Origin: Branchiostoma floridae
Lineage: Eukaryota > Chordata > Leptocardii > Amphioxiformes > Branchiostomatidae
Reading direction: 5' to 3'
Length of the DNA stretch: 64,000 nt
NCBI RefSeq assembly: GCF_000003815.2
Contig: NC_049992.1
Location: 11,999,450 to 12,063,449 of the forward strand
This document shows positions 36,333 to 59,452 of this stretch, in pieces. A program made the translations under genes and the position numbers. Position 1 is the stretch's first letter; every line of letters begins with the position of its first letter. Under the pieces are notes generated by a model that saw only the letters and a program-made list of their open reading frames with translations, had not been told where the DNA came from and did not search any database.

Positions 36333-36348
36333 ATGCACCTATCAATGT
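36333..36348 (+). promoter_or_regulatory. Putative RNA docking site for the selector family
   Basis: ATGCACCTATCAATGT lies 319 bases after the last constant exon and 1.4 kb before the first variant exon. It is the exact reverse complement of ACATTGATAGGTGCAT, the intronic motif repeated through the array. Seventeen selectors match it over all 16 bases. It is the only copy in this orientation upstream of the array. By analogy with Dscam1 exon 6, it would pair in the pre-mRNA with one selector at a time. Confidence 0.8.
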
Positions 36349-37737
36349 GAACCCTGAGGGAGCAGTACAAACACACTGCGCTGCAAAAATCCACAGTGTC
36401 ACTATGACAGTGTGTGACAAGAAGGAATTTTCTTTTGACATTTGGCCAGGGTTCATTACAAAGTGCCGTTTCGCAGATTAAGCGTAGAAACGTTGAAACT
36501 CTGTTTTTGACGGATGGGTGTTTGTGTCTGTTTCTATAACTTCTTGTCTGGGCATAACACAATTTGACAAAAAACAGTCACTATTTTGCTATGTGACAAG
36601 GATCATGTTTACTATTCCTGCTTTTATTTTAGGTTGAATTTGACAAAAAGAAATATTGATAAAGCCTTTGTTACCTATGGTATCATTTTCTACAAACTAA
36701 AATTCTTAGTAATAAAAACTACAAAAATGCAAGTCATGTTTGGTATGCTCAGACAATGGAGCCCATCAAATGGATGGCTAGTATGTTGAATGCAAGCAAA
36801 GAGGACACCAATACATGAATGTGTAGGAGAGAAAAGGACGGCCACAAAGGTAAGGTTAATATGGAAGATGGAAAAAAAAATGTTGGCAAGAGTGACCATT
36901 GAGTTCGTACAGAAATGTTTGAATGACTGTTATAGAGCTTATGATAAGCATAATACATGGGAAAAGGTTTTGTCTGTTCCTATCCTTGGGAAGTGAAGCT
37001 GTTCTTATCATAACAGTGCAAAATTTTCCATCATACTGCCATAGGCAGAAAGGTGATAGTTTCTTACCATTTGTGTCAAAGGTACCTGAATACTGTGGAT
37101 TAGTGTGGAAGCGGTTATACACATAATAGAAATGGTTCGAGAAACAAACAAGACTATCTATCAATTCTTCCTCAGGGTTTATTCTGAGGGGGAACTGTGT
37201 TATATCTGTGTTAGTAGGGAGTTTGTCAGTCTGAGGAATACTCAAGTGGTTCTATCTCAAGTTTGACTTGTTTTGAGAATCTACAGTCTTAGTTGTACAT
37301 CACAATGGTATATTCTTGGCTGATACAATTGGGGTCTAACGGATGAAATGGTCTCACCCTGTAGTGATCTATACATGACCAACTTGAGGCAGCATGATAG
37401 GATTGTTGAAGATCTATGACCACTAGACCATTTTAGTCTGGAGCTAACACATATAGATCAAAGCAGTACTAGTGCCTGACCCTATAAAGTGTTACACTTA
37501 GAGTTAGAGCCAGTTTTGATTAGAAAAATACTCAAGATCCATTAGCTAATCTTATAATTTGCGTAGTGTCTGGCAGACTTTGCATTTTTATGACCAGTTT
37601 CTAGCTCTTGAGTGTAGATATTGAAGTCATGAAACATCCCTGTTTCACACACCAAATTGCAGGTAGTTCCAATGATACCAGTGTGAACATCCTGATGGAA
37701 TAGCTTGTAATTCTCTGCTGTCTTCGGTTCCTTTCAG

Positions 37738-37878
37738 AGCAAATTCACTTTCCAATTGAGCCAGTCCATCCGGAACTGGAGGCGGAAAAGCAGATCAGGG
37801 TTTCCAAATCGCTGGAGTTTCTGGCAGAAGTTAGCTCACAGATCTGGTGAAAAACAGCCAAGACATTCAGCCTCTTAA
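37738..37878 (+). CDS. Variant tail exon V1
   Basis: Acceptor CTTTCAG, phase 0. Tail of 46 residues beginning SKFTFQLSQSIRNWRR, then a basic stretch and stop TAA. First exon of the array. No selector before it; it is the one closest to the docking site. Confidence 0.82.
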   Translation, partial: SKFTFQLSQSIRNWRRKSRSGFPNRWSFWQKLAHRSGEKQPRHSAS

Positions 37879-38435
37879 AAGATCAGATACAAATGAAACC
37901 CAAACTGATAGGTCCATTATGTTTAGTTGATGTTGTCAATTTCAGACTAGTTGATGCCGTGTCCCACATAGGAACAAAGAAATGGTGGCTTTATTTAATG
38001 ATTCAGGCCATCTGCCCATTACTGCATTAGAACATTTATCAAATGTATAGCGAAAGTAGATGACGAATATGTATAGAGAATTGTATTCAGCTCATAAACG
38101 GAGGCATGTCTGCTGATTTTGTTGAAATACAAAAACGTCAGTATTTAGGGAATCAAATCATATTTGCTAATGGGAAACCTTATGTGGCCAGTATGAAATT
38201 TTTTGAAGTTGTCAGTTACTGGAGTTGTATTAAAAGTTTGTATTTGACCAACCTGCTCTTAGAAAATTTCCTTGTTATTCTTTAGAGTTGGTTTTAGTAC
38301 CCCTGATATTGGATGCAAATTAATCTATTCTCTCAGGATCCAATATATGATGCTTTCCACCCCTTCCAATAAAGTACATGTTGTGAAAATATTGTCTGTA
38401 GAATTCTGAGAAAGTCTTTCTGATTCCCGTTCCAG

Positions 38436-38510
38436 AGTGAATTCCTGACTGTTGTTAGTCAGCGTGTCCGCAACATGAGGAAGAGGAACTTGATTCCGTA
38501 CGTGACTTAA
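38436..38510 (+). CDS. Variant tail exon V2
   Basis: Acceptor GTTCCAG. 24 residues, SEFLTVVSQRVRNMRK and end, stop TAA. Only a degenerate selector (ACTGATAGGTCCATT, 37905) precedes it. Confidence 0.8.
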   Translation, partial: SEFLTVVSQRVRNMRKRNLIPYVT

Positions 38511-38631
38511 GGGCACAGTTCCTTCTGCTAAACATAGCCCGGTGTTTCTAGATGAACTGGAAGAAAGACTTAAGTTTGTTACAAAATTAGACAGGTCAGT
38601 TAACTTAAGACTTTCATGATCTCCTTTCCAG

Positions 38632-38739
38632 AGCTTTTTAATGACTGATATTAGCCAACGAATCCGAAACTTGAGGAAAGAAATAAGGAGAAAGGGCCAG
38701 GATGGAGGAGGCAGTCTGTTGGAGTCGCTCTCAGGATAA
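38632..38739 (+). CDS. Variant tail exon V3
   Basis: Acceptor CTTTCCAG. 35 residues beginning SFLMTDISQRIRNLRK and ending in a Gly/Ser/Leu-rich, less basic stretch. No selector; intron after V2 only 121 bases. Confidence 0.78.
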   Translation, partial: SFLMTDISQRIRNLRKEIRRKGQDGGGSLLESLSG

Positions 38740-39135
38740 TGGATAACCTTGCAAGACTCCAGTCAAGATAGTTTAAGCACTCAGGGTTGAAGGGCTAGTT
38801 TCTAGTCTCATCTGAATGAACTCTGTGGTTAGTTGATAAAGATATCCTCCATCTAGAGTAGCAAGAAATATGTGTTGCTGACAGCAACAAGGGCCATTTA
38901 AGTAGATGATTTAAGCAGGTGCAATAATTTGAAACAAAGGAAACAAAAAATGATCAGTGTAATTTTCAGTATATTAGCGTTGATCTGTTACTACTTTAAA
39001 CTTATCAACAATTTTTGTATATTCTGACACATTTTAACATTTCTTAAATCTGGGCTTTTTGTAATAGCTTGTCTTTGAATAAATGTAAATGCAGGAAATA
39101 TAAACCCCTGAAGTTGTCTTAATTTGCATCCACAG

Positions 39136-39216
39136 GCCTTATTTACGAGGACACTGAGTCAGTCCATCAGAGATAGCCGTTACAGATTGAGTAAGAAATT
39201 TCGCAAGTTCCCGTAG
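39136..39216 (+). CDS. Variant tail exon V4
   Basis: Acceptor ATCCACAG. 26 residues, ALFTRTLSQSIRDSRY then LSKKFRKFP, stop TAG. A strong donor-like AAA|GTAAGTG lies 12 bases after the stop, which would allow splicing to a shared 3' UTR exon. No selector. Confidence 0.78.
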   Translation, partial: ALFTRTLSQSIRDSRYRLSKKFRKFP

Positions 39217-39404
39217 GCTAAAGACAAAGTAAGTGTGCTTGGCAAATAGTAAAACTTTTAAGCATTGAGGTCACACTTCACTTCTGCATCTTCTGTTAGT
39301 GGATACACTTATTACACTATTTGCTAAATAAAGGTAGAACAAATGATATGTGCTGGCTGATGGGTTGGTATTGATAGGTGCATCGTTCTTTCATATGGTT
39401 TCAG

Positions 39405-39593
39405 AGAAGTTTCACAAACCAGGTCAGCAAACGCATCAGGCAGAAGAAGTGGAGGCAAAAGAAAGAGCCTGGGATTGACACCATTATGAAACTATCAGCA
39501 AAAATCTGGAAATTTGTTACTGTCCTGTTGACTTCTAAAGTTCAATCAACCAAGTGGTCAGAAATTCCTGCAAGCAATATATGTTTGACTTAA
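39405..39593 (+). CDS. Variant tail exon V5
   Basis: Acceptor GTTTCAG. 62 residues (long), RSFTNQVSKRIRQKKW then a less basic extension. Perfect selector at 39370, only 20 bases before the acceptor. Confidence 0.75.
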   Translation, partial: RSFTNQVSKRIRQKKWRQKKEPGIDTIMKLSAKIWKFVTVLLTSKVQSTKWSEIPASNICLT

Positions 39594-39708
39594 TATACAT
39601 TAGACACCATAAGGGACCAGTTAAATTTTTAGAATTATAAAAAAAGCTCCAGCTTTTAATATGCAAGACTTTTTCCTTCAAATTTTGTCCTTATTACATC
39701 TGTTACAG

Positions 39709-39810
39709 GATTTTGTCAAGAACTTGTCCAAGAATGTGAGCCAAAGAAGGTGGAGAGCAAAGAAAAAGTTTGGTATAAATGTTACAAAGAACAGACTTTT
39801 CAAGTTCTGA
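39709..39810 (+). CDS. Variant tail exon V6
   Basis: Acceptor GTTACAG. 33 residues, DFVKNLSKNVSQRRWR and a basic tail. One residue shorter before the conserved Phe than the others. No selector. Confidence 0.75.
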   Translation, partial: DFVKNLSKNVSQRRWRAKKKFGINVTKNRLFKF

Positions 39811-40213
39811 AATTGATAGACTTTTCTAGGGCTTAATGTCCTTGAAGTTTTGTATTGTCTGGTCAGATATCAGGTCATGCTGTCATTATTGATATAAAAT
39901 TGTAACTGGATGAGTCAGTTGGCATTTTCTGTTGGTTTGTCATATTTCACCATTATTTTAATGTAATGCTACAATACACAACTGTGTAAGATGGAACAGC
40001 GTACTTTTTGTATACTTACAAAAAATGTAAATCCCATCCATAGTATTGATGACATTGGTAGGTGCATCAATGACTGATTCAGATTGTTCTAGTATGTATT
40101 ATTTTTTAGCCATAAAAGACTTACTCAAAATTATCAATACAAAAAGTAGGCAGCTTCTGTTTATTATTATTATTATTACTACTACTACAGTTTATTATTT
40201 GCATATGTTGCAG

Positions 40214-40300
40214 CGGGATTTTGTTCTGAAGCTGAGCCAAACCATCAGATTCAGACGATGGAGTGACAAATACAAACCCTCCAGAAAGAAAAGATTTTAA
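40214..40300 (+). CDS. Variant tail exon V7
   Basis: Acceptor GTTGCAG. 28 residues, RDFVLKLSQTIRFRRW, ending PSRKKRF. Selector 40054 (A5 to G, still pairs as G-U). Confidence 0.8.
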   Translation, partial: RDFVLKLSQTIRFRRWSDKYKPSRKKRF

Positions 40301-40484
40301 GTTCATTTTAAGTTGCCTCAGTACAGAATACAACACATATTCCTATATTTGTGTGTCTGTGTTTTTTGCCTGTTAGTTTGGTGCAGAGCTACAGAAAGAT
40401 TGACACTTTGTGCTAAAATGAAATCATGGTCCGACAACCTTGCTTTCCAAAAATAAGTCAGTTAATGAACCTTTCTTTTTCCAG

Positions 40485-40553
40485 AGTTCCTTTACACGAA
40501 AACTGACCAAATCCCTGCAGCGCAGGAGGTACTACCTAAAGCACAACCGCTAG
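40485..40553 (+). CDS. Variant tail exon V8
   Basis: Acceptor TTTCCAG. 22 residues, SSFTRKLTKSLQRRRY then YLKHNR. No selector. Confidence 0.8.
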   Translation, partial: SSFTRKLTKSLQRRRYYLKHNR

Positions 40554-40872
40554 GAGTGGGGCTACTGAGAGAACTAATAGATCTATCCTGTATAGAGTTG
40601 ACATTGATAGGTGCATCAGACTAAGACTTGTCAGTTTCCGTTCTCATGTCATTAGACAGTCAGTTAATCAGTTGCCAGCGTTGTGTTCAATGGTTTCTAA
40701 TCAATATTATATGATAGAAGGGTATAGAATCACGAAAAAGTGTGTTCTATGTTTAGCAAATGAATAATCTGTTCTTCAACTGAATATTGACGGGTGCATC
40801 AGCATCTGTCTAATTCTTAATTCATGTTTTTCTTTGAAGATTTCAAATTTTTTTGTTCTCATTTTCTTTCAG

Positions 40873-40941
40873 AGTGCCTTCACACTGAAAATGAGCAAAA
40901 GCATTCGTCGTAAACGCTACCATTTGAAACACAATAAATAA
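40873..40941 (+). CDS. Variant tail exon V9
   Basis: Acceptor TTTCAG. 22 residues, SAFTLKMSKSIRRKRY then HLKHNK, stop TAA inside an AATAAATAAA run. Two selectors precede it (40603, 40786); an exon between them may have decayed. Confidence 0.82.
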   Translation, partial: SAFTLKMSKSIRRKRYHLKHNK

Positions 40942-41089
40942 ACGTGTTATTAACAGTGCGGCCTATTGTCTGGGTAGGACTTAATTGCAATATCAATGTC
41001 AAAACTGTTATGGAGGCACTTGTATGTCTGCAGTTCAGGTCTGAGACTTAAGTGGTCAAGTTTCATTTGACATTTTCTCGTCATTTCAG

Positions 41090-41191
41090 AGTAAGTTCTC
41101 GTTTGTACTGAGCAGACGTATGCGGTATGTACGGAAACTAGTGCGAGAAAGTCGACAACAACATCATGTAGCAAGGGAAGAGGAAACATGA
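41090..41191 (+). CDS. Variant tail exon V10
   Basis: Acceptor ATTTCAG. 33 residues, SKFSFVLSRRMRYVRK, then Arg/Gln/His-rich with an acidic end. No selector. Confidence 0.8.
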   Translation, partial: SKFSFVLSRRMRYVRKLVRESRQQHHVAREEET

Positions 41192-41554
41192 TATAACAAG
41201 AGTCCGAAATTGTTGCGTACGTTGTTGTGTAATGTGTATAATACTCCCCAACCTATGTTTACGAGATAAACCTAATATAAGCATATTATTGGTAAGGAGG
41301 AAAATTTACAATTTATTACCTAGTAAGGGTATAACATTTCGGTAGCATATATGTATTTTATAAGTCTGTTATATTATTTGTTAGGCTTAAAGGAACTTCC
41401 CTTCTCCCCCTCAGCTAACATTGGTAGGTGCACTTAAGTAGAAAATAGAGGCAATAATAGTAAATAATTGTATTTTTCCATTCCTTTCAATGACCTTCAA
41501 AGAATCTATTAAATGCTTCAACCAAAGGTTGATTTGACATTGTATTTTTTGCAG

Positions 41555-41638
41555 AGTCAGTTCTCAAGGAGATTGACTAAGACTTTACAAAACAGACGGT
41601 ACTACGAGAAACACTGTGTAAACCCAAAAGGCAGTTAG
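41555..41638 (+). CDS. Variant tail exon V11
   Basis: Acceptor TTTGCAG. 27 residues, SQFSRRLTKTLQNRRY then YEKH...NPKGS. Closest relatives are V12 and V13 (recent duplication, also shared upstream intron sequence). Selector 41420. Confidence 0.85.
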   Translation, partial: SQFSRRLTKTLQNRRYYEKHCVNPKGS

Positions 41639-41858
41639 TAGTGAATGGAGGTAGTAGACATGGTTTAGATTTTAGTTTGGAAGCATTGATGGGTGTATCA
41701 GTAGCAGGTGTTCATAGTTTTCTTTGAGTGGTGGAGTAAACAGCACAACTCCTACTATTGCCAATGTCAATAGAACGTTCTGTTGTCATTAAAAACCTTG
41801 TGGTATACGTCTAAGTATGTTTCAACCAAGGGTTCATTTGACATTCATATTTTTGCAG

Positions 41859-41942
41859 AATCACTTCACAAGGAGTTTGTCTAGGGCATTGGCAAACAGC
41901 CGATACTACAAGAAACGGTTTATTGACCCCAAAGGTAGTTAG
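41859..41942 (+). CDS. Variant tail exon V12
   Basis: Acceptor TTTGCAG. 27 residues, NHFTRSLSRALANSRY, ending DPKGS. Selector 41685 with two changes (A7 to G, C12 to T), both G-U compatible. Confidence 0.85.
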   Translation, partial: NHFTRSLSRALANSRYYKKRFIDPKGS

Positions 41943-42157
41943 TGGCTGGAGGTAGCAGACATGGTTCAAATGTCCATTTGGAAGCATAGATATGTGCATC
42001 AGCAGTAGCAGCCTTGTATCAAGTGTTAAATCATTTCTTTGGGTGGGGGAAGGCAGCACAACTTGTAGTGCACCTAGCAAGATCAACGTTCTGTTGTCAT
42101 TTAAAGTGTGGCATGTGTTTCAACCAAAGGTTCATTTTGACCTCTGTATTTTTGCAG

Positions 42158-42241
42158 ACTCAGTTCACTGGAAGGTTGTCTAAGACATTGGCAAACAGCC
42201 GGTACTACAAGAAACATGGTAAAAGTCCCAAAGGGAGTTAG
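42158..42241 (+). CDS. Variant tail exon V13
   Basis: Acceptor TTTGCAG. 27 residues, TQFTGRLSKTLANSRY, ending SPKGS. Selector 41986 carries two mismatches. Confidence 0.85.
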   Translation, partial: TQFTGRLSKTLANSRYYKKHGKSPKGS

Positions 42242-42358
42242 TGGCTAAAAGTGGTAAAATCTCAGTGTGGAAGCATTGATAGGTGCAACAATAGGTTTCT
42301 TTTAGTTGTGGAAAAGACAGCAGAACTTCTTATGTATAATCTCCATTTTCTGTTGCAG

Positions 42359-42430
42359 AGCATGTTCACAAAAAGGTTAAGCAAGTGTTTGAAAAATAAA
42401 CGGTATCGAGAAAGGTACCAAGAGAGATGA
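42359..42430 (+). CDS. Variant tail exon V14
   Basis: Acceptor GTTGCAG. 23 residues, SMFTKRLSKCLKNKRY then RERYQER. Selector 42275. Confidence 0.84.
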   Translation, partial: SMFTKRLSKCLKNKRYRERYQER

Positions 42431-42752
42431 AGTCAGGGGTGTTGAAGAGGTAATTATACCTTGCCTTGGGCCACTTGAGATTCAAAGGTAATTATTTTGC
42501 AAATGCCAAAAAAAAAACTTTTACACTTTGCTAACTGGCATTACTTACAGCTTTATGTGGCATTATAGAAAATAAACAAACAGGTACAATTGGCTTGACA
42601 TTGATTGGTGCATCTACAAGGGGAGATATTTCCATATTGTTTTGTTTCAACTCAAAGAAAGATAAAAACATTTTACATACATGTACACAGTTGCTGCAGC
42701 TTTCAGTAACCAGTAGTTTGAAAGGCTAATGTTCTCTGTGGTCCCTTTCCAG

Positions 42753-42875
42753 AGCAAGTTTTCCGCCCAAGTAAGCATGTTTCTCCGTCGCAAACGGTAC
42801 AAGACCAGGAAAGATGGTAAAGACATCCCCTGGCGCTGTGAAAGGAAAAGAATGTCATTTGGTGGGTTGTCATGA
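42753..42875 (+). CDS. Variant tail exon V15
   Basis: Acceptor TTTCCAG. 40 residues, SKFSAQVSMFLRRKRY and a mixed tail. Its TGA stop lies inside the next selector (42871). Own selector 42600. Confidence 0.8.
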   Translation, partial: SKFSAQVSMFLRRKRYKTRKDGKDIPWRCERKRMSFGGLS

Positions 42876-42966
42876 TAGGTGCATTGAGGGCACAGCAAAC
42901 GGTTTTTGATGATGAAGATTGTAGTTTTGTTATATTGATTCAGCTCTTTTCTTTGTCCCTTTCCAG

Positions 42967-43038
42967 AGCAAGTTTACACAGCAATTAAGTAAGTGCATCC
43001 GGTGGAAAAGATATGTGACAAAGAAGTATAAACCATAA
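42967..43038 (+). CDS. Variant tail exon V16
   Basis: Acceptor CCTTTCCAG. 23 residues, SKFTQQLSKCIRWKRY then VTKKYKP. Selector 42871, overlapping the stop of V15. Confidence 0.84.
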   Translation, partial: SKFTQQLSKCIRWKRYVTKKYKP

Positions 43039-43170
43039 GCACAGGACCTCACAACAATGGTTGAGATACCCCTCAATGGTTATATTGATAGGTGCATTAA
43101 TCTACCCAGTTTTGGACATCTAAGTTCTATGCATAGCTATGACAATTTTTTCATCTTGTATATTTTTCAG

Positions 43171-43242
43171 AGGCAATTCATAAAAAAAGTTAGCCAAAAA
43201 ATTAGGATGACCAGGTGGCGGGAGAAATTTAGTGACAAGTAA
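43171..43242 (+). CDS. Variant tail exon V17
   Basis: Acceptor TTTTTCAG. 23 residues, RQFIKKVSQKIRMTRW then REKFSDK. The TAA stop overlaps a donor-like CAA|GTAAGC. Selector 43084. Confidence 0.82.
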   Translation, partial: RQFIKKVSQKIRMTRWREKFSDK

Positions 43243-43721
43243 GCACTCCTCTGTGGCAGTAAGTACCAGACTAGGATATTGCCTGATTCTGTGAAAGGGA
43301 TATGACATTGTATGGGATACAACATTAAATACATTTGCAAGAGTTCCCTTTTGACCATCCTCAGTAGCATTGGTAGGTGCATTCCTTGAGAGATTTTGCT
43401 TCTTTGTTTGGTTTTTAAAACTAAAAGCATTTCATATGTCTCCAAACGTAACTACTGGCTTAATTTCCTTGTTTCCTCCTTCCTTCCACATTAGCTGATA
43501 TTACTTCACACACTTGCAATCGTTGCATTACAGTTGTGTTGATTCATTTCCCATTGAAGACATATAAAATAGATCTAAATGGTTGTCATTGCAGCAGTTT
43601 GGGGTTTGTCTGTATCTTTTGTAGATGTCCAAGTGCAAACCCTGCTCTTATGGATAGGCCCAATAGCTAGTCCACCTCTCAGAGTACCAGTTGTGTAGTC
43701 GGTGTTGTGTCTGTCTTTCAG

Positions 43722-43820
43722 CGCCACTTTGTGCAGCGGATGAGTCAGAGCATCCGACACAGGCGACACCACATCAGACACGGGGGCAGACGAAAGTCAG
43801 TGGGGCCCAAAAATGTTTAA
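43722..43820 (+). CDS. Variant tail exon V18
   Basis: Acceptor CTTTCAG. 32 residues, RHFVQRMSQSIRHRRH then HIRHGGRRKSVGP. Unusually His/Arg-rich. Selector 43369. Confidence 0.82.
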   Translation, partial: RHFVQRMSQSIRHRRHHIRHGGRRKSVGPKNV

Positions 43821-44199
43821 AGGAAAACTCCAGGAGAGCATGTATATCATGCATGTTACTGACTGGTCTGACTACATAGCACATCTTGACTTGCTAAATT
43901 ATGAAAACATGGTTCAGTTTGCCGTCATACAGATCGTGAATTTTGCCCATGGTTTGAACATTGACAGGTGCATTTAAAACCCAAGCATTATTGCCAAAGT
44001 GTCAACCTGCTTTGCAGCTAATAGATATTGTACGGTCATTTTGACCAAAACAGATTGTTACAGACGCCTAAAATATTAGAAAACACTCAGGAAGACCATA
44101 GCTGAGGTGGAACATAATGTGAAAGTTCTTAACATGGGATGTCACAGTTGGCAGTGGGTAATAGTATCTTACCAACGTTCTGCTGATGTTAAATTTCAG

Positions 44200-44280
44200 G
44201 GCGAGTTCAACATACAACTGAGTAACAGGCTGTGTCATTTGCGGAGAACAGACAGGGGAAAGGACCAAGGACATAAATAA
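44200..44280 (+). CDS. Variant tail exon V19
   Basis: Acceptor ATTTCAG. 26 residues, GEFNIQLSNRLCHLRR, ending KDQGHK. Selector 43960 (T6 to C). Confidence 0.82.
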   Translation, partial: GEFNIQLSNRLCHLRRTDRGKDQGHK

Positions 44281-44553
44281 CAAAACTATAGACCTGGCCA
44301 AATCTTCTATGGTCAACTTTAGGGATCATGTTGGTCAACACTGCCTCTCTTGTCCACCTACATGTATGAAATGAAATAAGCTGGCTAGGCAACCTAGTTG
44401 ATGTTTCATTTTTGAATACCTTACCTCAGCTAAACCATTGATAGGTGCATCCAAGTTAATTCAGTTATTCTCCTCCTGTCCATTATATGTAGTATCCTGA
44501 AGATTTGATTTTGAATGTTCCAAAGTACATCATTTGTAAACTCTTGCTTTCAG

Positions 44554-44936: not shown

Positions 44937-45085
44937 TAGCTGACAGGACCATCTTGTTCTTAGTGTTAACATTGATAGGTGCATCTGTAAGAAGTCATTA
45001 TGGCAGTCATATGTACATGAACTTCTGAAAATGTGAATATTTAAATAAAACTTGAGTTAATGAATTCTTATGGTTTGCTTTGCAG

Positions 45086-46194: not shown

Positions 46195-46294
46195 NNNNNN
46201 NNNNNNNNNNNNNNNNNNNNNNNNNNNNNNNNNNNNNNNNNNNNNNNNNNNNNNNNNNNNNNNNNNNNNNNNNNNNNNNNNNNNNNNNNNNNNN
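46195..46294. other. Assembly gap inside the array
   Basis: Exactly 100 N, a conventional unknown-size gap, between the selector at 46111 and V26. More variant exons may be hidden here. Confidence 0.9.
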
Positions 46295-51215: not shown

Positions 51216-51335
51216 GAAACGTTCATCAAACAACTGTCCAAGAGGTTCTGCCATGTACGATGGTTTGCAAAGAAAAGGTTGAGGAATAAAATGAAGAGTC
51301 AAGATGGAAACTTCTTTTCAACTGGCAACACATAG
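51216..51335 (+). CDS. Variant tail exon V38
   Basis: Acceptor TCTCCAG. 39 residues, ETFIKQLSKRFCHVRW then FAKKRLRNKMKSQDG. Selector 51048. Confidence 0.82.
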   Translation, partial: ETFIKQLSKRFCHVRWFAKKRLRNKMKSQDGNFFSTGNT

Positions 51336-51536
51336 ATAAGCATGTATAGCAAACTGTACAAGGCAAGCAACAATAGGCTAAGTCTCTTGGTGCGCATTGG
51401 TGCATTGCCCAACACTTGTGTACCTGTATGTAAATCTCGTGGATAAAAGATGCCACAATCAACTTAAGTAACCTCCTTTCTATCAGGTTCTTGGCCGTAG
51501 TTACAGCAAAGGTTTAGTGTCTGATTTGTATTTCAG

Positions 51537-51632
51537 GATGCCTTTGGTCTTCTGGTGCGCAAGAGGATGTACAATGCTAGGAGGACAACAAAGAAAAGGG
51601 AAAGATCTCAGCAAAATACATGGCATTTGTAG
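51537..51632 (+). CDS. Variant tail exon V39
   Basis: Acceptor ATTTCAG. 31 residues, DAFGLLVRKRMYNARR then TTKKRERSQ. Its selector (51396) has lost ATAG (ATTG-GTGCATT). Confidence 0.78.
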   Translation, partial: DAFGLLVRKRMYNARRTTKKRERSQQNTWHL

Positions 51633-51805
51633 CAAAGACAGATACTGAGATAAAGAGGGAAGAAATGCTTCGAACCAGGGTACATTGATAGGTGCATCTG
51701 TAGGAATATATTGTGACCCCATGATCTGAACAGGGAAGTTGGGAAGGGCAGGGTTCACCAGGGAGGGCTTTAGTAGCTCTTATCTAGAATTTGCTTTACT
51801 TCCAG

Positions 51806-51928
51806 GAGCACTTCTGCAGGCAAATGTACACCAGAGTTCACCATTGCAAGTGGCTCACTAAGAAAAAACTTAAAGCTAGGATGGAACTATTGGAAGAGAC
51901 GGGGCAGGACAGTTGGCACAAAATATAG
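51806..51928 (+). CDS. Variant tail exon V40
   Basis: Acceptor TTCCAG. 40 residues, EHFCRQMYTRVHHCKW then LTKKKLKARM and an acidic end. The stop TAG runs into a donor-like TAG|GTAAAA. Selector 51684. Confidence 0.82.
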   Translation, partial: EHFCRQMYTRVHHCKWLTKKKLKARMELLEETGQDSWHKI

Positions 51929-51996
51929 GTAAAAGTCCTTTTATGTCTTAAGAGATAAAGGCACACAACATTACCACATTCCTCTCCCACTTCCAG

Positions 51997-52113
51997 GATG
52001 GCTTCCTTAAACAGCTATGCAATAGGCTCTACCACGTAAGATGGACCACGAAAAAAAAGTTGAGGGGAAAAATGAGCAGTGGACAAGGAAGCTTCAAGTT
52101 CAAGAAGAATTGA
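51997..52113 (+). CDS. Variant tail exon V41
   Basis: Acceptor CTTCCAG. 38 residues, DGFLKQLCNRLYHVRW then TTKKKLRGKM. Only 68 bases after V40 and no own selector. Confidence 0.8.
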   Translation, partial: DGFLKQLCNRLYHVRWTTKKKLRGKMSSGQGSFKFKKN

Positions 52114-52236
52114 CTCCCACTCCACGATAGTGTATAACGTGTTAGATACATGGAATATTTAGAAAACACCACTGTATTTCTGTACACCTTTAGGTATATA
52201 ACAATGTTTTAGATGTCTTTGGTATTTCTGTTACAG

Positions 52237-52353
52237 GAGACCTTTGCTAAACAGATGTGCAAGAGAGTTTACAATGTTAGATGGACTACAAAGGAAAGGG
52301 AAAAAGCAGTGGCAATACATAAAGCGGGAAGAAGTCAAGGGCACATGTTCTAA
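52237..52353 (+). CDS. Variant tail exon V42
   Basis: Acceptor GTTACAG. 38 residues, ETFAKQMCKRVYNVRW then TTKEREK. No own selector. Confidence 0.8.
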   Translation, partial: ETFAKQMCKRVYNVRWTTKEREKAVAIHKAGRSQGHMF

Positions 52354-52570
52354 GACGTAACAATTTAAAGAAACTGCCTTTTCAATAGGTTCTTGTGTAC
52401 ATGTTTGTGCATTGATAGGTGCATTTCATAGGACTTGGTTGTTTCTCATGTCAGTAAAACAACTGTTGATGTTGCTGTTATTAGTCTTAAAACATGGGAA
52501 TCGGTTGCATGTAAGTCCAGGCTATGCCTGTGACAGCTACTGCAACAGTATTTATCTTGCTGTTTTACAG

Positions 52571-52678
52571 GATATCTTTGCTAAACAAGTACACAGGAGA
52601 GTCAACCATAACAACTGGATCTCAAAGAGAGAACTTAAAGCCAAGATAGCTTGTGAGGAACAACTTTTTTTTACATGA
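52571..52678 (+). CDS. Variant tail exon V43
   Basis: Acceptor TTTTACAG. 35 residues, DIFAKQVHRRVNHNNW then ISKRELKAKIAC. Selector 52411. Confidence 0.82.
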   Translation, partial: DIFAKQVHRRVNHNNWISKRELKAKIACEEQLFFT

Positions 52679-52767
52679 AGGCCCCTAGAAAAGTCTGCTA
52701 GAAAAATTGACAACCACTTGTCATGCATATAACAGTATTGTTTTATATCTCTTGTCCTCCTTCACAA

Positions 52768-52827
52768 AGTGGCTTCATCAAACAGTTGAGAAAAAGGATG
52801 GCTAATGTCAAGTGGTGGTCAACATGA
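52768..52827 (+). pseudogene. Variant tail exon V44, acceptor mutated
   Basis: The exon body is intact (19 residues, SGFIKQLRKRMANVKW), but the acceptor reads CACAA instead of CACAG (52763-52767; compare V47). The next AG is two bases inside the exon and would shift the frame. Probably a dead exon. No selector. Confidence 0.72.
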
Positions 52828-53058
52828 TAAAGACTACTAGGACTTAAAATAACAAATAACAGAACACTAGAAAGGCAAACCTTTTTGCGGGCTGGCCATT
52901 TAACCAATAGTTACATTGATGGGTGCATCATGTAGTGAGGGCTTTGTTTCTTAAGTCAATACACTAACTCTTCATTCCGCTCTTAAAAAGTGGGCGTCGG
53001 TTAGATACAAGGCTATTCCTGAAACTGCCACTTTTTTTAGCATTTACTTTGCTTACAG

Positions 53059-53184
53059 GACATCTTTGCCAAACGAGTATGCAAGAGGGTCTACCATAAC
53101 AGATGGATGTCTAAACGGCAACTCAAAGCCAAGATGGCTTGTCAGCAAGAAAGGAAGGGATGGACAAGTACATTTTCCTCGTGA
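53059..53184 (+). CDS. Variant tail exon V45
   Basis: Acceptor GCTTACAG. 41 residues, DIFAKRVCKRVYHNRW then MSKRQLKAKMAC. Close to V43. Selector 52915 (A7 to G, wobble-compatible). Confidence 0.82.
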   Translation, partial: DIFAKRVCKRVYHNRWMSKRQLKAKMACQQERKGWTSTFSS

Positions 53185-53295
53185 AATCTGCGGATGCTTA
53201 GTCAACTGTAAAAGTGACTGCAGGATATATGAATTAGAATGTGTCATTTCTTCTACCCGTACGAATTATTGTTTATATCTTATTTACCTTCACAG

Positions 53296-53361
53296 GGTGA
53301 CTTCGTCTCAAAGTTGAGAAGCCGGTTGGATTATGTCGGGTGGATGGCTTTTAAGCTCTGA
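53296..53361 (+). CDS. Variant tail exon V46
   Basis: Acceptor TTCACAG. 21 residues, GDFVSKLRSRLDYVGW then MAFKL. Weakly basic. No selector. Confidence 0.72.
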   Translation, partial: GDFVSKLRSRLDYVGWMAFKL

Positions 53362-53626
53362 AATTAAAGGCAAGAATTTCTTAGAATATTTAAAACTTTA
53401 ACTTATCTTTAAGGACTTGTAGTATATCAGTAAACTCAGGGTGAAAATTTAGGACAGGGCCCTATGTTGCCTGGGAATGTACATATGTGTCTGTCAATGT
53501 AAGTCTTGGTTTGGCCATTTAACTAATACTAAGTACATTGATAGGTGCATCAAGTAGTCAGGCAGATAAAACAGAGTATTTCAGTTGATATGACAATCAC
53601 TTTATTTCTCTTATTGTCCTTCACAG

Positions 53627-53686
53627 AGTGGCTTCACCAAACAGTTAAGCAAAAGAGTCACCAATGTCAGGTGGAGAAGGAAATAA
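53627..53686 (+). CDS. Variant tail exon V47
   Basis: Acceptor CTTCACAG. 19 residues, SGFTKQLSKRVTNVRW then RRK. Close to V44. Selector 53537. Confidence 0.82.
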   Translation, partial: SGFTKQLSKRVTNVRWRRK

Positions 53687-53964
53687 ATGACAATGATCAT
53701 TTCTTAAGATTTCTCAAAGACATGGGTTTAGAAAGGAAGACTTAGTAACAGTCCTGTCTTTTAGAGTTGACATAGCTATACTTCCATATCATGTATGATA
53801 CATTGATAGGTGCATTCCTTTTGGCATGTTATTTGTTACATGTATCTGTAGTTACATAGAAGATGTGATCTGTCTCTTGTTCATAAGCTGAATTGAACGA
53901 AATATTCTCAGCTCTTTTGAATATCCCATCTGCCATTAAATTGTCTCCCCGGCTTTCCTTTCAG

Positions 53965-54051
53965 CGTGAGTTCAGTAAACAGTTCAGGAAAAGAATCAAC
54001 AATGAGAGATGGAAGGCAAGGGAAACTGGGAAGTCCACTGGGAAGGAATAG
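53965..54051 (+). CDS. Variant tail exon V48
   Basis: Acceptor CCTTTCAG. 28 residues, REFSKQFRKRINNERW then KARETGKSTGKE. Selector 53802. Confidence 0.82.
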   Translation, partial: REFSKQFRKRINNERWKARETGKSTGKE

Positions 54052-54080
54052 CACCTGTGTAATATCAACAGTTTAACACA

Positions 54081-54360
54081 AAGGGAACCATGAATTCAGT
54101 AGCACATGTTAAAGCTATGCCACAGTCCTATCAAATAGATGTCCAACACTAAGCAGATCCTACCTCTAGTTACTGTAGACTACTGTTCAAAATGCTGACA
54201 CAGAAATATGTTTCAGGCCAAAGGGGACCATGTATTCAGTACTAGCGCATTTGCCACAGTTCTATCAAATAGATGTCCAACACTAAGCAGACCCCACCTC
54301 TAGCTGTCTGTTACTGTGGACTACTGTTAAAAATGCTGACACAGAAATATGTTTCAGGCC
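54081..54360 (+). repeat. Tandem duplication of the V49 acceptor region
   Basis: Two ~140-base units (54081-54220 and 54221-54360) share AAATAGATGTCCAACACTAA and TGACACAGAAATATGTTTCA. The first copy keeps an acceptor (54216) with no variant exon behind it. Confidence 0.8.
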
Positions 54361-54456
54361 AGGTTTGTCAGACAACTGAGCCAAAGGATCTGCTGGTGCA
54401 GGTGGAAAGAGAAAGGAAAGAGGAAAGTCCCTGGGGGCTCAGGAAGTCAGACTTAG
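54358..54456 (+). CDS. Variant tail exon V49
   Basis: Acceptor GTTTCAG in the second copy of a tandem duplication. 32 residues, ARFVRQLSQRICWCRW then KEKGKRKVPGGS. No selector. Confidence 0.8.
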   Translation, partial: ARFVRQLSQRICWCRWKEKGKRKVPGGSGSQT

Positions 54457-54654
54457 CGACAAGAAAGTTTACCTGTAATACAAATAGCAACTGCAAATTT
54501 TCCCTTAGTAGTGGTTAAAAAATGCTGGCATTCTGAGTACATTGATAGGTGCATAATAAGGTTATTTTGTGTTGAATGTCGTATGTTTCCAAGAATGATT
54601 TGAACAGTACATTTCTCAAGCATGGTGATGATTTTTTCCTGGTTGCCTCTCCAG

Positions 54655-54747
54655 AGCGCTTTCAAGAAACAGCTTAGGAAAAGGGTCAACCATGTAAGAT
54701 GGACCACCAACAAAAAGATTCGCCAGAGCTTTAGAAAGCAACCTTAA
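54655..54747 (+). CDS. Variant tail exon V50
   Basis: Acceptor CTCCAG. 30 residues, SAFKKQLRKRVNHVRW then TTNKKIRQSFRKQP. Recent duplicate of V51. Selector 54541. Confidence 0.85.
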   Translation, partial: SAFKKQLRKRVNHVRWTTNKKIRQSFRKQP

Positions 54748-54950
54748 GGGTTAAGACATTGATAGGTGCAATGACAAGTTCGGATTTTAGGTTCAACATT
54801 TTATTGATTCAACTTTGACATTTTGATAACATTGACAGGTGCATAAGAAGGTTACTTTTGTGCTGAATGTTGTATGCTTCCAAAAATGATATAACCAGTA
54901 ACTGTTCTTGTTACATGCTTGGCCTGATTTTTGCTTGGTTGCTTCTCCAG

Positions 54951-55043
54951 AGCGCTTTCAAGAAACAGCTTAAACAAAGGGTCAACCATGTAAGATGGAC
55001 CACCAACAAAAAGATTCGCCAAACTTATCGAAAACAACCATAA
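54951..55043 (+). CDS. Variant tail exon V51
   Basis: Acceptor TTCTCCAG. 30 residues, SAFKKQLKQRVNHVRW then TTNKKIRQTYRKQP. Two selectors (54758 and 54831) precede it, the extra one inherited through the duplication. Confidence 0.85.
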   Translation, partial: SAFKKQLKQRVNHVRWTTNKKIRQTYRKQP

Positions 55044-55132
55044 GGGTTAGGACATTGATAGGGGCATAAGGATGAACTTGACACTTAGTTTAACATTGAG
55101 TCTTGTAATGCCATCTTCCCTTCCCATTCCAG

Positions 55133-55195
55133 AGCAAGTTCGTAAAACAAATCAGTCAGAGGTTGCGTAAGGAAAGATGGGCTGCAAAGAGATGA
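55133..55195 (+). CDS. Variant tail exon V52
   Basis: Acceptor ATTCCAG. 20 residues, SKFVKQISQRLRKERW then AAKR. Selector 55054 (T10 to G). Confidence 0.82.
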   Translation, partial: SKFVKQISQRLRKERWAAKR

Positions 55196-55436
55196 TCTCA
55201 GCCACACTGCAGTTGCATCTAAGCACAGAAAATCACAAGGGAATCAAAAAGCAAGCTATTAACAAGGAGTTTTTGTATAAAATCATGTCTACATGTAGAG
55301 CCTTCCATGTTGAGCTATGGGAATTTGTTGCCCAAAAGCTTCTTTTTGTAAATCTCATGAGCTTTGCTAGTCTATGGTTTACAGTACAGAACTTAAAGCA
55401 TCACTGATTCATCTGTATCTCTTTCTCCCATTGCAG

Positions 55437-55514
55437 AGTAAACTTGTCAAACAACTAAGCCAGAGGTTGTGTAAAGTAAGGTGGGCAGAAAAAAGAGGGT
55501 CCTGGACTTATTAA
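55437..55514 (+). CDS. Variant tail exon V53
   Basis: Acceptor ATTGCAG. 25 residues, SKLVKQLSQRLCKVRW then AEKRGSWTY. No selector. Confidence 0.8.
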   Translation, partial: SKLVKQLSQRLCKVRWAEKRGSWTY

Positions 55515-55727
55515 ATACTTGTACTAAACAGTATCAGGAGTGGTAAGATTCTGTCGGGAGGTTGATATACATTTGTGTATTTACAAAACTCCATCACATT
55601 GATAGGTGCATCAACTTAAACTGACTTATTATGAGGGTATTGTTGCAACCTGAAGTGATTTCAGTGCACAAGATTTTGTGTTGTGTCTTTTCCTGATGTT
55701 GCAATTTGAAGTTTCTAATAGTGATTG

Positions 55728-55728
55728 A

Positions 55729-55759
<31 letters not shown>
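55728..55759 (+). repeat. (GAAA)n microsatellite
   Basis: About eight GAAA units in the intron before V54. Confidence 0.9.
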
Positions 55760-55814
55760 TGAAAATATGGACCCTTGGTAGGTTTCATAAACGGCTTCTT
55801 TCTCTTTTTTCCAG

Positions 55815-55901
55815 AGCAAGTTTTCACGGCAGCTAAGCAACTGCCTCTGTTGTAGGAGGTACAGGGCAAAGTTGAAAGGCAGACATCTAGACACGCAGTG
55901 A
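55815..55901 (+). CDS. Variant tail exon V54
   Basis: Acceptor TTTTCCAG. 28 residues, SKFSRQLSNCLCCRRY then RAKLKGRHLD. Cys-rich in the conserved part. Selector 55598. Confidence 0.82.
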   Translation, partial: SKFSRQLSNCLCCRRYRAKLKGRHLDTQ

Positions 55902-56096
55902 AAGAAAAGACAAGAAAAGAGTACTGCTTTGAGCCATCTTTTGAGTTACTTAAACAGTATCAAACAAGTTCAAAAACCTTCATAACTAACCATACTGTCT
56001 ATTGAGACTTAAAGGGATGGGAATGTCTCTCTGTTTTAGTAGTTTAGATTTGCATTGATAGGTGCACTTTCCTGACCTCTGTAACTTCTGTTTCAG

Positions 56097-56195
56097 AGCC
56101 AATTTACAAAACAGCTAAGCACAAGAAACTGTCACCAGAGATACAAAATGAAACAGGACCAGGAGATAAACAGCAGTGATGCAAAGGAAAGATGA
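56097..56195 (+). CDS. Variant tail exon V55
   Basis: Acceptor GTTTCAG. 32 residues, SQFTKQLSTRNCHQRY then KMKQDQEINS. Selector 56054, only 28 bases before the acceptor. Confidence 0.8.
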   Translation, partial: SQFTKQLSTRNCHQRYKMKQDQEINSSDAKER

Positions 56196-56283
56196 GAGGG
56201 GAAAGGGCTTGGAAGAGTAACAAATCATAAAATATTGTCACTGGTTCCTCTATTCTCAATGGTTTTTGCTGCTTGTATTTCAG

Positions 56284-56376
56284 AGATATTTCATCCAGAA
56301 AGTAGCCAGTCGGGTCCGTCACGAACGACGTCTAGTCAAGAGATATCAGAAGAGATATGAACGATATAAGCAGTAG
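56284..56376 (+). CDS. Variant tail exon V56
   Basis: Acceptor GTATTTCAG. 30 residues, RYFIQKVASRVRHERR then LVKRYQKRYERYKQ. 88 bases after V55; no own selector. Confidence 0.8.
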   Translation, partial: RYFIQKVASRVRHERRLVKRYQKRYERYKQ

Positions 56377-56531
56377 TGTCCATACAGTAAATATGGTGAT
56401 ATGTCATCTGTTCTATTAGATAAGACGGCAGGAGGAATGCTATCTTTCATTTATTCCACATTGATAGGTGCATCTATTACATGAACCCTCAAGAATGTTT
56501 ATGGTTTTTGTTTGCCTCTCTTTTATTTCAG

Positions 56532-56612
56532 AGTGTATTCCAAACCAAGGTAGCCAATAGGGTTCGCTTTTGCAGGTGGGAAGCAAAGCATCCAAGGGGA
56601 AAACAAGCATAA
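56532..56612 (+). CDS. Variant tail exon V57
   Basis: Acceptor ATTTCAG. 26 residues, SVFQTKVANRVRFCRW then EAKHPRGKQA. Selector 56460. Confidence 0.82.
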   Translation, partial: SVFQTKVANRVRFCRWEAKHPRGKQA

Positions 56613-56832
56613 TGGAGGATAAAGCAGCTGTCAATGGGGTTGATTGGCCAGCAGTACATTGCTTTGGGTCTTTGTATAGGTTGCTTGTTGGCTACTTTCA
56701 TTTCCTTATCTAATGTTGAGGTCATCAGCTTCAGTATACCACAGAGAATGTAGCTGAAAGTTGCCAGTTGTTTATGATGTTGAATGATGTTGTAAACAGT
56801 GATTGTGAACAGCTCTATTCTATCCATTACAG

Positions 56833-56922
56833 AGCGAATTCACCAGACACTTAAGCCAAAGCATCCGAGACAAAAGACGACGTTCGGACAAAAAGGCTCA
56901 GATGCTTAGCCATATAGCTTAA
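56833..56922 (+). CDS. Variant tail exon V58
   Basis: Acceptor CATTACAG. 29 residues, SEFTRHLSQSIRDKRR then RSDKKAQM. No own selector. A donor-like ATGG|GTTAGT follows the stop by 15 bases. Confidence 0.8.
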   Translation, partial: SEFTRHLSQSIRDKRRRSDKKAQMLSHIA

Positions 56923-57181
56923 GATCAAATGTATGGGTTAGTACTACTAGAACGTTAACTACCTCACATGCCCCTGGTCACATTGATAGGTGTATTAACT
57001 GGCTTTCTGATGAGTTGTAGTCATAAATTCTTTGTACTGTCCCTGCAAGAAATGTGTAGCTCTAAACTAGCAAACAAAATTACTAAATGAGACATAAAAG
57101 GATAGACATGAAATCTATGCAGAGTGTAGAATCCCTGTACTTGGCTTGATTATTTATGACTTTGTTGTTGATTTTACACAG

Positions 57182-57256
57182 TCAGAGTTTCACATACAGC
57201 TCAGGAAGAGGGTATGGTTCACAAAAAGGCCAGAAAAAGAAGGGATGGACCAGTAA
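57182..57256 (+). CDS. Variant tail exon V59
   Basis: Acceptor TTTTACACAG. 24 residues, SEFHIQLRKRVWFTKR then PEKEGMDQ. Donor-like CTG|GTGAGA is 7 bases after the stop. Selector 56982 (C12 to T, wobble-compatible). Confidence 0.8.
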   Translation, partial: SEFHIQLRKRVWFTKRPEKEGMDQ

Positions 57257-57473
57257 ACCTGGTGAGAAAATGGGATGACCAGAAGTTTCATGGTTGCAAT
57301 AAGTTATGAAAGTTGTTGGGACCTGTGTACATCTGTGTTGAATGTTCAACTCCTACTCTGACAGCCCTCACTGTAGCACATTGATAGGTGCATCAAAGGC
57401 TTTTTAGACCACATGCATTGTCGTGTTATAACAAAAGTTCTGTTAATTACCTCTTGCATTGCTTATCTTACAG

Positions 57474-57593
57474 ATTAAAATAAAGAACCAAATCAACATT
57501 GATGACATTGCTTTGAAATTAAAAAATTACAAGAAATTAAATCTTCTAATTACATCATTTTTAGATCAGATGCTTGAAAAAACATTTCTTTAA
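57474..57593 (+). CDS. Variant tail exon V60 (strongly diverged)
   Basis: Acceptor ATCTTACAG and a perfect selector at 57380. The 39-residue frame, IKIKNQINIDDIALKL, keeps only traces of the pattern and is Lys/Asn/Leu-rich. Either decayed or radically changed. Confidence 0.45.
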   Translation: MKIKNQINIDDIALKLKNYKKLNLLITSFLDQMLEKTFL

Positions 57594-57637
57594 TGTTGGT
57601 CAGGATGGTAACAACTTTCATGATTTATTTCTTACAG

Positions 57638-57742
57638 ACCATTTTCACTAGGAAATTGAGTAGGAGAATATGGCATAACAAGTCAAAATCCTACCCGAAA
57701 ACCCAACCCTCTGAGTTCGACCAGGCAGGAATGGACATGTAA
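57638..57742 (+). CDS. Variant tail exon V61
   Basis: Acceptor CTTACAG. 34 residues, TIFTRKLSRRIWHNKS, then a Pro/Ser-rich, acidic end. No own selector. Confidence 0.76.
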   Translation, partial: TIFTRKLSRRIWHNKSKSYPKTQPSEFDQAGMDM

Positions 57743-58208
57743 AGTCTTTCAAGGTGCAGCACTGTTGGGCAGTTGTGTTCGTGCAACAGCGGTCATCTCT
57801 TGTTATCGGAAGATCCCACTTTGTTTTACCTCCTCAGCAAGCATGTCATGGTTTCTATGTGGCTCTCATGTAGGTTAAATAGATACAGAAAAGGTTAAGC
57901 AAATCAGCTTTAAAATCCTAGGTTCATGCACTGTTCAGATAGCATTTTTGGCACAAAACTCAACTTAAGACATCTATAAGTTAGAAATCTGAAAGATAAG
58001 GTCCAAAACATGTCTCAATCAAAGGCAGGTATCAGAAACTTCTCATAAGGCCAGTGAAGCCACAGTACAAGTTTTTTTTTAAATTCCTGATGTCCTATGT
58101 GGAAAAAGAAAGTGATAACGTTTTACTAACTGCACCCCATAGTCTGCAAATTTTTCTCTCCTTCTCCCCAATATATTCTTCCAACCGATGTCCGTTTTTC
58201 CATTGCAG

Positions 58209-58379
58209 GTAGAGTTTACTGCTCAAATCAGCAAGCGGTTATGGTACGAACGAGAGACACCAAAGAAAAGGGCCAAGAAAAACATGTTCCTTGGAAGTGA
58301 CACTCTCTTAATACCTGTAACTACTAGTGATACAGATAAAATACCTGCAAGTAGTAGTGTTACAGATGAACCTCAATAA
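58209..58379 (+). CDS. Variant tail exon V62
   Basis: Acceptor CATTGCAG. 56 residues, VEFTAQISKRLWYERE, then TPKKRAKKN (NLS-like) and a Ser/Thr/Asp tail with an imperfect TSDTDKIPASSSVTDE repeat. No selector in its 466-base intron. Confidence 0.78.
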   Translation, partial: VEFTAQISKRLWYERETPKKRAKKNMFLGSDTLLIPVTTSDTDKIPASSSVTDEPQ

Positions 58380-58483
58380 GCTCTGGTCAAGTGTCATAAA
58401 GGTTTTCATGCTGCTCCCTTCACTCTGGTATAAACTGATGTACGTTTTCGTCATCCCAACGCTTGTCTCAATTTACTTTTCAG

Positions 58484-58576
58484 GCTGAGTTAACGACACA
58501 ATTAAGCAAGAGGATACGTCATGTTAGATGGAAAAGAGGGAAAAGAGTACCGAAAATCGTGTCGACATATTCATAA
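58484..58576 (+). CDS. Variant tail exon V63
   Basis: Acceptor CTTTTCAG. 30 residues, AELTTQLSKRIRHVRW then KRGKRVPKIVS. No selector. Confidence 0.8.
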   Translation, partial: AELTTQLSKRIRHVRWKRGKRVPKIVSTYS

Positions 58577-58689
58577 AATATAGTTTATCCAAGCACAGGC
58601 TTCGCGGTTTTTGGAATAGTATGCAGACCTTCGCTATAAATTTGATCAATTGAATGCTGATTGGAAATTTTTCGACCCTTTTTTTGCAG

Positions 58690-58752
58690 TTTGCGTTTTC
58701 TACTCAAGTCAGGAAGAGGGTTTGGAAGATGGAAAAGAAGGGCTTGAAATAG
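58690..58752 (+). CDS. Variant tail exon V64
   Basis: Acceptor TTTTTTTGCAG. 20 residues, FAFSTQVRKRVWKMEK then KGLK. No selector. Confidence 0.76.
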   Translation, partial: FAFSTQVRKRVWKMEKKGLK

Positions 58753-58980
58753 ATTGAAAGCTGAGCAGCAAGCAGCAGTTTTCAACTCTGCAATGTACAT
58801 GCTACTGTTTCTCCTTTTCAAGCTCTTTGTGGTTCAGTATGGCCATACTTGTAAGGGGAAAAAAGTGAGAAAAGGCAGAATATTGTTCTCTTGGATGGAA
58901 AACTCAGGCATGATCCTTTTCAATCTGATAATACACAGTAGTACAGATTTTCCATGGTCTTTCTCCCTCTGCCCTTTCAG

Positions 58981-59076
58981 AGGCTGTTCACTAAGCAAAT
59001 CAGCAAGAGGATCAGGGCAGAACGATGCAAGATTAGGAAAAAATGCCAGGTGTTCGATCCAACCCTGCATTCCTAG
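58981..59076 (+). CDS. Variant tail exon V65
   Basis: Acceptor CCCTTTCAG. 31 residues, RLFTKQISKRIRAERC then KIRKKCQVFD. No selector. Confidence 0.8.
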   Translation, partial: RLFTKQISKRIRAERCKIRKKCQVFDPTLHS

Positions 59077-59452
59077 ATTGACAACTTCATATTGGAAGAT
59101 AGTATATAGCTTTCACCTGAGCCAGACATTTAACTTGACCTGTAAAATTGTAGGCTGTAAAGACAAGGTACATTATTTATATTTATAGAACGAAGTAAGC
59201 TGGTCTTAAGTAACCCTCCATCCTTGTAGACATTGATAGGTGCATAGTTAAGACAAGATGTCTGCTATGTATAACATTGAAAATACTGCTCTTAATTCAT
59301 TGCTTCCAGTTTCTGTTCTGAATCATGGGCTAGGGTCAGTCTTGCCTAAAACTGCTCTTGCTTGGTATCACACTCTTGCAGCTTTTTTTTGTTTGGATGC
59401 AGTAACTTCCACTGCTGTAGCCTGGACGTTCATGTTGTAACTTGTATTACAG

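Follow-up and report, generated by a model that had tools for sequence, protein, structure and literature searches.

It is known that lola of Drosophila joins a single N-terminus to many alternative C-terminal modules. One N-terminus with many alternative C-terminal modules is also found in mod(mdg4) of Drosophila, where the parts are joined by trans-splicing (PMC12692577, in excerpt). In exon 6 of insect Dscam1, the intron that follows the last constant exon contains a docking site, opposed to 48 selectors located upstream of the variants, with one common complement (PMC8042237 and PMC11802352, in excerpt), while exon 9 of beetle Dscam1 is described with bidirectional competing structures and docking sites flanking the array (PMC8042237, in excerpt). 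Competing RNA pairing has further been described for the choice among 3′ variable regions in PGRP-LC, pip, and CG42235 of Drosophila (PMC9013439, in excerpt, citing Pan et al. 2018). For vertebrates, excerpts of PMC11802352 describe the case of ATE1 with five elements, and an origin of docking/selector systems by duplication of one stem arm has been proposed (PMC6071210, in excerpt). As far as the literature was searched, large docking/selector arrays are known from arthropods, and no lancelet system of this kind was among the literature matches listed. Here, we analyzed a stretch of 64,000 nt from the lancelet Branchiostoma floridae (contig NC_049992.1, forward strand, 11,999,450–12,063,449; hereafter the window, whose numbering is used for all coordinates). 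The window contains an array of 66 homologous exons interspersed with 46 copies of a conserved motif, the selectors, and three sites complementary to them at the edges of the array. On the basis of the sequence, we consider it probable that the array belongs to a lola-like gene with 66 alternative last exons, which would be chosen by competing docking/selector pairing, including a step that acts from both sides.

The array (E1–E66; 37738–60049, + strand) was compiled by hand from the 95 rows of a repeated-peptide profile search and by inspection of reading frames. Two runs of N fall within or close to it (46195–46294 and 60716–61474), and the counts are therefore possibly slightly low. All 66 exons open in phase 0, matching the phase-0 close of the last constant exon before the array (35778–36014, +; donor TGG|GTAAGT, score 8.7; all donor scores are approximate), and each of them has a stop codon of its own. 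As in Dscam1 exon 6, a tandem array of homologous variants thus follows a constant exon. An arrangement of the protocadherin type, in which variants start transcripts, was not found: 65 of the 66 exons begin in phase 0 at a YAG acceptor, and promoters were not searched for. The remaining exon, E44 (52768), has lost the AG of its acceptor (CAA), has no selector before it, and is probably a dying exon. The variants share a peptide core of approximately xxFxKQLSxRIRHxRWxxKK, and the nonsynonymous substitution rate (dN) was below the synonymous rate (dS) in all 13 exon pairs for which an estimate was obtained (17 close pairs tried, ≤25 codons). Neighbouring exons are similar to one another, and much of the array appears to have been built by tandem duplication.

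The 46 selectors occupy the gaps between exons from 37902 to 59245 (+ strand; first copy 37902–37917, last copy 59230–59245) and share the consensus ACATTGATAGGTGCAT followed by C or T, with 17 exact copies. They were defined by at most 5 mismatches over 16 nt and at most 3 in the inner 14. An earlier, sequence-only reading of this DNA had counted 47 occurrences of the motif, which is too many for exact copies, as the 15-mer ATTGATAGGTGCATC occurs only 17 times on the + strand and the 46 selectors are reached only with mismatches allowed; its statement that 17 selectors match the docking site over all 16 bases was exactly reproduced. Chance is ruled out as an explanation, since the 15-mer with ≤2 mismatches has 45 matches compared to 0.19 expected from shuffles. 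None of the selectors is centred in an exon, and one overlaps the stop codon of E15. Of the 65 inter-exon gaps, 42 contain one selector, 2 contain two, and 21 contain none; these 44 occupied gaps compare with a maximum of 39 in 5000 random placements.

Pairwise identity of the 16-nt selector core is 88%, whereas each of the six flanking 16-nt blocks is at background (26–29%). This difference bears on the notion that selectors were passively carried along, without function, as exons were duplicated in tandem. Such duplication did make much of the array, judging from the similarity of neighbouring exons, but a core that stays conserved while its flanks have decayed to background requires selection, and we find the passenger explanation scarcely conceivable. 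The position of the selectors, at a median of 83.5 nt past the preceding stop codon, together with the AG|GT that they contain, could also suggest that the exon before them has a weak 5′ splice site there (TAG|GTGCAT), which the inverted copies mask. However, this site reaches a donor score of just 4.0, conservation covers 17 nt, the GT is lost in the copy at 55052, and the copy at 41984 reads TAT|GTG. A donor that far past a stop codon would, moreover, be liable to make the message a target of nonsense-mediated decay, and a role as donor is very improbable.

Genome-wide searches (513 Mb, 431 contigs) argue against a dispersed repeat, which the sequence-only reading had named as a possible refutation. 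Among the matches listed, 18 of 19 exact matches to the 15-mer lie in this locus, and the selector flanks are dissimilar. With ≤1 mismatch, 34 of the 92 matches listed fall within the locus and the others are scattered; a backwards control pattern gave 14. One selector-like site (1 mismatch) was observed 30 kb past the array at 90638 (− strand), with a weaker inverted copy (3 mismatches) 178 nt away at 90816 (+ strand).

The upstream docking site, D_up (36333–36348, − strand), is the exact reverse complement of the 16-nt consensus ACATTGATAGGTGCAT. It is located 318 nt downstream of the donor of the last constant exon, i.e., between this exon and the first variant, and is complementary to the selectors, as in Dscam1 exon 6. 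A perfect reverse complement upstream of the array had been claimed before; this applies to the 16-mer, but the 15-mer ATTGATAGGTGCATC is matched there at only 14 of 15 positions and has its sole perfect complement within D_dn2 at 60465. The accompanying claim that the reverse complement occurs once has to be revised, because two further copies lie beyond the last selector: D_dn1 between E65 and E66 (59789–59804, − strand, 16/16) and D_dn2 after E66 (60465–60480, − strand, 15/16), of which the latter can extend pairing to base 17 of the selectors (C/T). Apart from these three sites, which have 0, 0, and 1 mismatch and all lie at the array edges, all sites of docking polarity in the window have 4 or more mismatches to the 16-mer.

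By Watson–Crick pairs, D_up can pair fully with 17 of the 46 selectors, and with 26 when G-U pairs are allowed. Duplex energies were calculated in silico, leaving out the cost of closing long loops. For D_up, 42 of 46 selectors surpassed all 553 non-selector tiles of the array and 38 surpassed all 556 upstream tiles; the corresponding numbers were 43 and 43 for D_dn1, and 38 and 23 for D_dn2. Substitutions among selectors preserved the pair as G-U in 24 of 50 cases compared to 13.5 expected (p = 0.0014), and in 14 of 34 compared to 8.4 when the tolerant first position was left out (p = 0.026); G>A substitutions were not seen among the selectors. The edge bases follow a pattern of their own. 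At base 0, 40 of 46 selectors carry A or G, which suits the U in D_up and D_dn1; 10 selectors fit D_dn2 at this base. At base 17, 41 selectors carry C or T, and all 41 can pair there with the G of D_dn2, compared to 14 for D_dn1. We take this edge-base pattern to reflect selection for pairing with docking sites on either side of the array. Docking sites are also locally more open than control stretches, with unpaired values of 0.59 (D_up), 0.60 (D_dn1), and 0.49 (D_dn2) compared to 0.43.

Variants of the Dscam1 exon 6 type are internal exons with an acceptor and a donor. The lancelet variants do not appear to be of this kind, as all 66 carry stop codons and donors are not significantly in excess behind them. 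Within 50 nt after the stop codons, donors with a score >5 were found for 11 of 65 exons on the forward strand compared to 8 on the reverse strand (p = 0.62), and all gaps together contain 15 donor sites with a score ≥7 on the forward strand and 18 on the reverse strand. A strong donor-like site (CGG|GTAAGG; 60058–60063, +) lies 8 nt past the stop codon of E66; it may be there by chance, with 10 equally strong sites on the + strand of the window. Weaker donor-like sites within 60 nt after the stop codon were seen for E4, E14, E26, E53, and E59. As no significant donor excess was found, most variants are probably alternative last exons, for which a single donor chooses one acceptor. Variants without donors could not be doubly included, even in the absence of RNA structure. 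This shifts the role that the sequence-only reading had given to pairing, namely to make exon choice mutually exclusive: one exon per message would follow without any pairing, which would instead provide reach and choice. Regarding the ends of the messages, the hexamers AATAGA (11 gaps compared to 4.9) and AAGAAA (14 compared to 7.8) are mildly over-represented, and we would guess that messages may end at scattered poly(A) sites shared among variants.

From this layout, we infer how the transcript would be spliced. D_up would pair in vivo with one of the 46 selectors and loop out every earlier exon, and the paired selector would bring the constant donor close to the acceptor directly downstream (median distance 125.5 nt). 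As the variants seem to have no 5′ splice sites, a message would automatically include just one of them, and the main effect of pairing would be to let distal acceptors compete with proximal ones over 22 kb. D_dn1 and D_dn2 would probably pair with the selector that follows the chosen exon, which would close off later acceptors and leave the chosen exon exposed between two stems. Docking may be two-sided, because the 17th selector base fits mainly D_dn2 and the far end of the array carries two inverted copies. In this way, competing intramolecular RNA pairing would select among 66 alternative 3′-terminal exons, as one branch of a lola-like gene, and each choice would give the protein a different basic helix at its C-terminus. 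The same complement could also be employed between molecules, if each variant had a promoter of its own and two separate RNAs were joined through docking/selector pairing. Such trans-splicing is known from mod(mdg4) (PMC12692577, in excerpt), whose gene plan of a constant 5′ part and many 3′ exons is alike. Here, however, the gaps are short (median 252 nt with and 150 nt without a selector) and leave little room for promoters, which were not searched for. In addition, trans-splicing appears quite improbable to us; we know of no case of the mod(mdg4) kind in lancelets.

Several observations weigh against exon choice by intramolecular docking/selector pairing. A selector is present in the stretch before 44 of the 66 exons and absent before the other 22. 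The gaps without a selector are the shorter ones (p = 0.008 for the medians given above), and some neighbouring exons may therefore share one selector. Base 17 of the selector can pair with D_up in only 5 of 46 cases, and the local openness of selectors is below that of control stretches (unpaired values of 0.36 and 0.43, p = 0.014). The G-U-tolerant substitution bias is modest, is partly carried by the tolerant first position, and comes from copies that are not independent. The canonical poly(A) hexamers show no excess, with 20 AATAAA and ATTAAA on the forward and 21 on the reverse strand over all gaps, and the distance from exons to the next of these hexamers is the same as from random points. 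Weak donor-like sites (score >5) are somewhat commoner on the forward strand 50–150 nt past the stop codons, and some variants may own donors: between 50 and 100 nt, 13 of 54 exons have such a site on the forward strand and 6 on the reverse strand (p = 0.13; 12 and 6 with selectors masked), and between 100 and 150 nt, 10 and 4 of 45 exons do (p = 0.14; 7 and 4 with selectors masked). Finally, relatives of the N-terminal exon of this gene were found at four places on the same chromosome (14508118, 13744302, 9102777, and 9116177; 40–66% identity), but the two that were checked (30 kb and 20 kb) had zinc-finger exons nearby and neither helix exons nor an array, and thus offered no test of covariation.

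Some of these observations would suit a motif that is bound by an RNA- or DNA-binding protein, with the inverted copies as further sites, such that this factor and not RNA pairing sets exon choice. The motif is unusually uniform, with 17 of 46 copies identical, selectors are not locally open, and C or T is preferred at base 17 although D_up has no G there. The latter preference could reflect protein reading of the motif, or a D_up that formerly had a G at this position. Nevertheless, copies elsewhere in the genome are few (one exact copy outside the locus among the matches listed), inverted sites are confined to the array edges, and the substitution bias tolerates G-U pairs with zero G>A. We regard a protein-binding motif as unlikely and retain docking/selector pairing as the preferred explanation.

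The array would form one of several branches of the gene. The proposed first coding exon, containing the ATG (27357–27398, +), ends in a phase-0 donor (GGG|GTGAGT, score 10.1) and is in frame with the common N-terminal exon (28111–28861, +), whose phase-1 donor (ATG|GTAAGT) allows in-frame joining to modules of five kinds. The first alternative C-terminal module (29507–29898, +) has a phase-1 acceptor and its own stop codon, and presumably is HTH-like, judging by eye. The second (30887–31500, +), with a phase-1 acceptor, its own stop codon, and an AATAAA at 31937, we take to be BEN-like by the same kind of inspection; a Pfam scan of both modules gave zero matches. The third (32506–33020, +; phase-1 acceptor, end tentative) matches the zf-Tnp_2 zinc finger (PF13842, E = 3.9e-5, 24.5 bits compared to a cut-off of 24), for which a transposase ancestry is possible. 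The helix branch starts with lead exon 1 (34726–34796, +; phase-1 acceptor, phase-0 donor) and lead exon 2 (35048–35485, +), and reaches the array through the last constant exon as lead exon 3. For the assembled E24 isoform, the reading frame is continuous from the ATG. No BTB domain was found in the common part, and the N-terminal stretches scanned had no Pfam match. With a common N-terminus and alternative C-terminal modules that join in frame, as in lola and mod(mdg4), the predicted gene is a lola-like hub that combines a single N-terminus with HTH-like, BEN-like, zinc-finger, and helix modules. C2H2 zinc-finger exons, a second alternative C-terminal group, were observed at 63899–64000 (+) and on to ~74.0 kb; four of six candidate exons have phase-1 acceptors compatible with the same N-terminal exon. 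Elsewhere in the window, a GTPase reading frame lies at 17041–17736 (−; PF01926, E = 6.3e-6, weak IIGP match, 231 aa open) and a CUB-domain reading frame at 437–967 (−; PF00431, E = 8e-13).

An independent, convergent origin of docking/selector splicing would fit the cephalochordate host. Large GFP families are a mark of cephalochordates, and a fluorescent protein of lancelet origin had 72 exon matches in this genome, at up to 88% identity and in several clusters; the GFP family model gave no match. More tentatively, with slightly less than even confidence, we suggest that one of the largest docking/selector systems on record, docked at both ends, arose in a chordate separately from those of arthropods; it would equip a transcription-factor-like protein with one out of 66 tails for reading DNA or partners, beside the other module classes, and the choice could be partly random and serve to label cells. 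If true, a lancelet system with 46 selectors would mean that arrays of tandemly multiplied exons have repeatedly acquired the same RNA logic, and that a nuclear-factor-like gene, rather than a surface receptor, has dozens of alternative ends. The locus would then also test the proposed origin by duplication of a stem arm (PMC6071210, in excerpt). Furthermore, exons without donors would part "reach and choice" from "mutual exclusion", which are mixed together in Dscam1.

Compared to Dscam1 exon 6 as described in the excerpts cited above, the lancelet locus has the same upstream layout, with one complement for many selectors. The likeness that the sequence-only reading had seen holds for position, polarity, conservation, and a modest G-U-tolerant bias, and ends where the exons look terminal and 22 of 66 lack their own selector; gene, protein, and lineage all differ as well, and two extra inverted copies lie downstream. 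With lola and mod(mdg4), the locus shares the common N-terminus and the many alternative C-terminal modules, but its N-terminus is without a Pfam domain (no BTB), and it has a homogeneous array of 66 helix exons and the docking/selector motif. Beetle Dscam1 exon 9 likewise has its array flanked by docking sites in the excerpt of PMC8042237; in the lancelet, however, a single selector motif would serve both sides, and the downstream sites are two. A choice among 3′ variable regions by competing pairing would be shared with PGRP-LC, pip, and CG42235, and as these were already reported (PMC9013439, in excerpt), the terminal-exon type itself is not new. A terminal character would fit the stop codons of all 66 exons, but AATAAA and ATTAAA show no excess. 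Relative to these three genes as excerpted, the lancelet array is far larger, belongs to a chordate, and encodes C-terminal helices. What is probably new here is thus the combination of a very large array, a chordate host, apparently terminal exons, putative two-sided docking, and a nuclear-factor-like gene.

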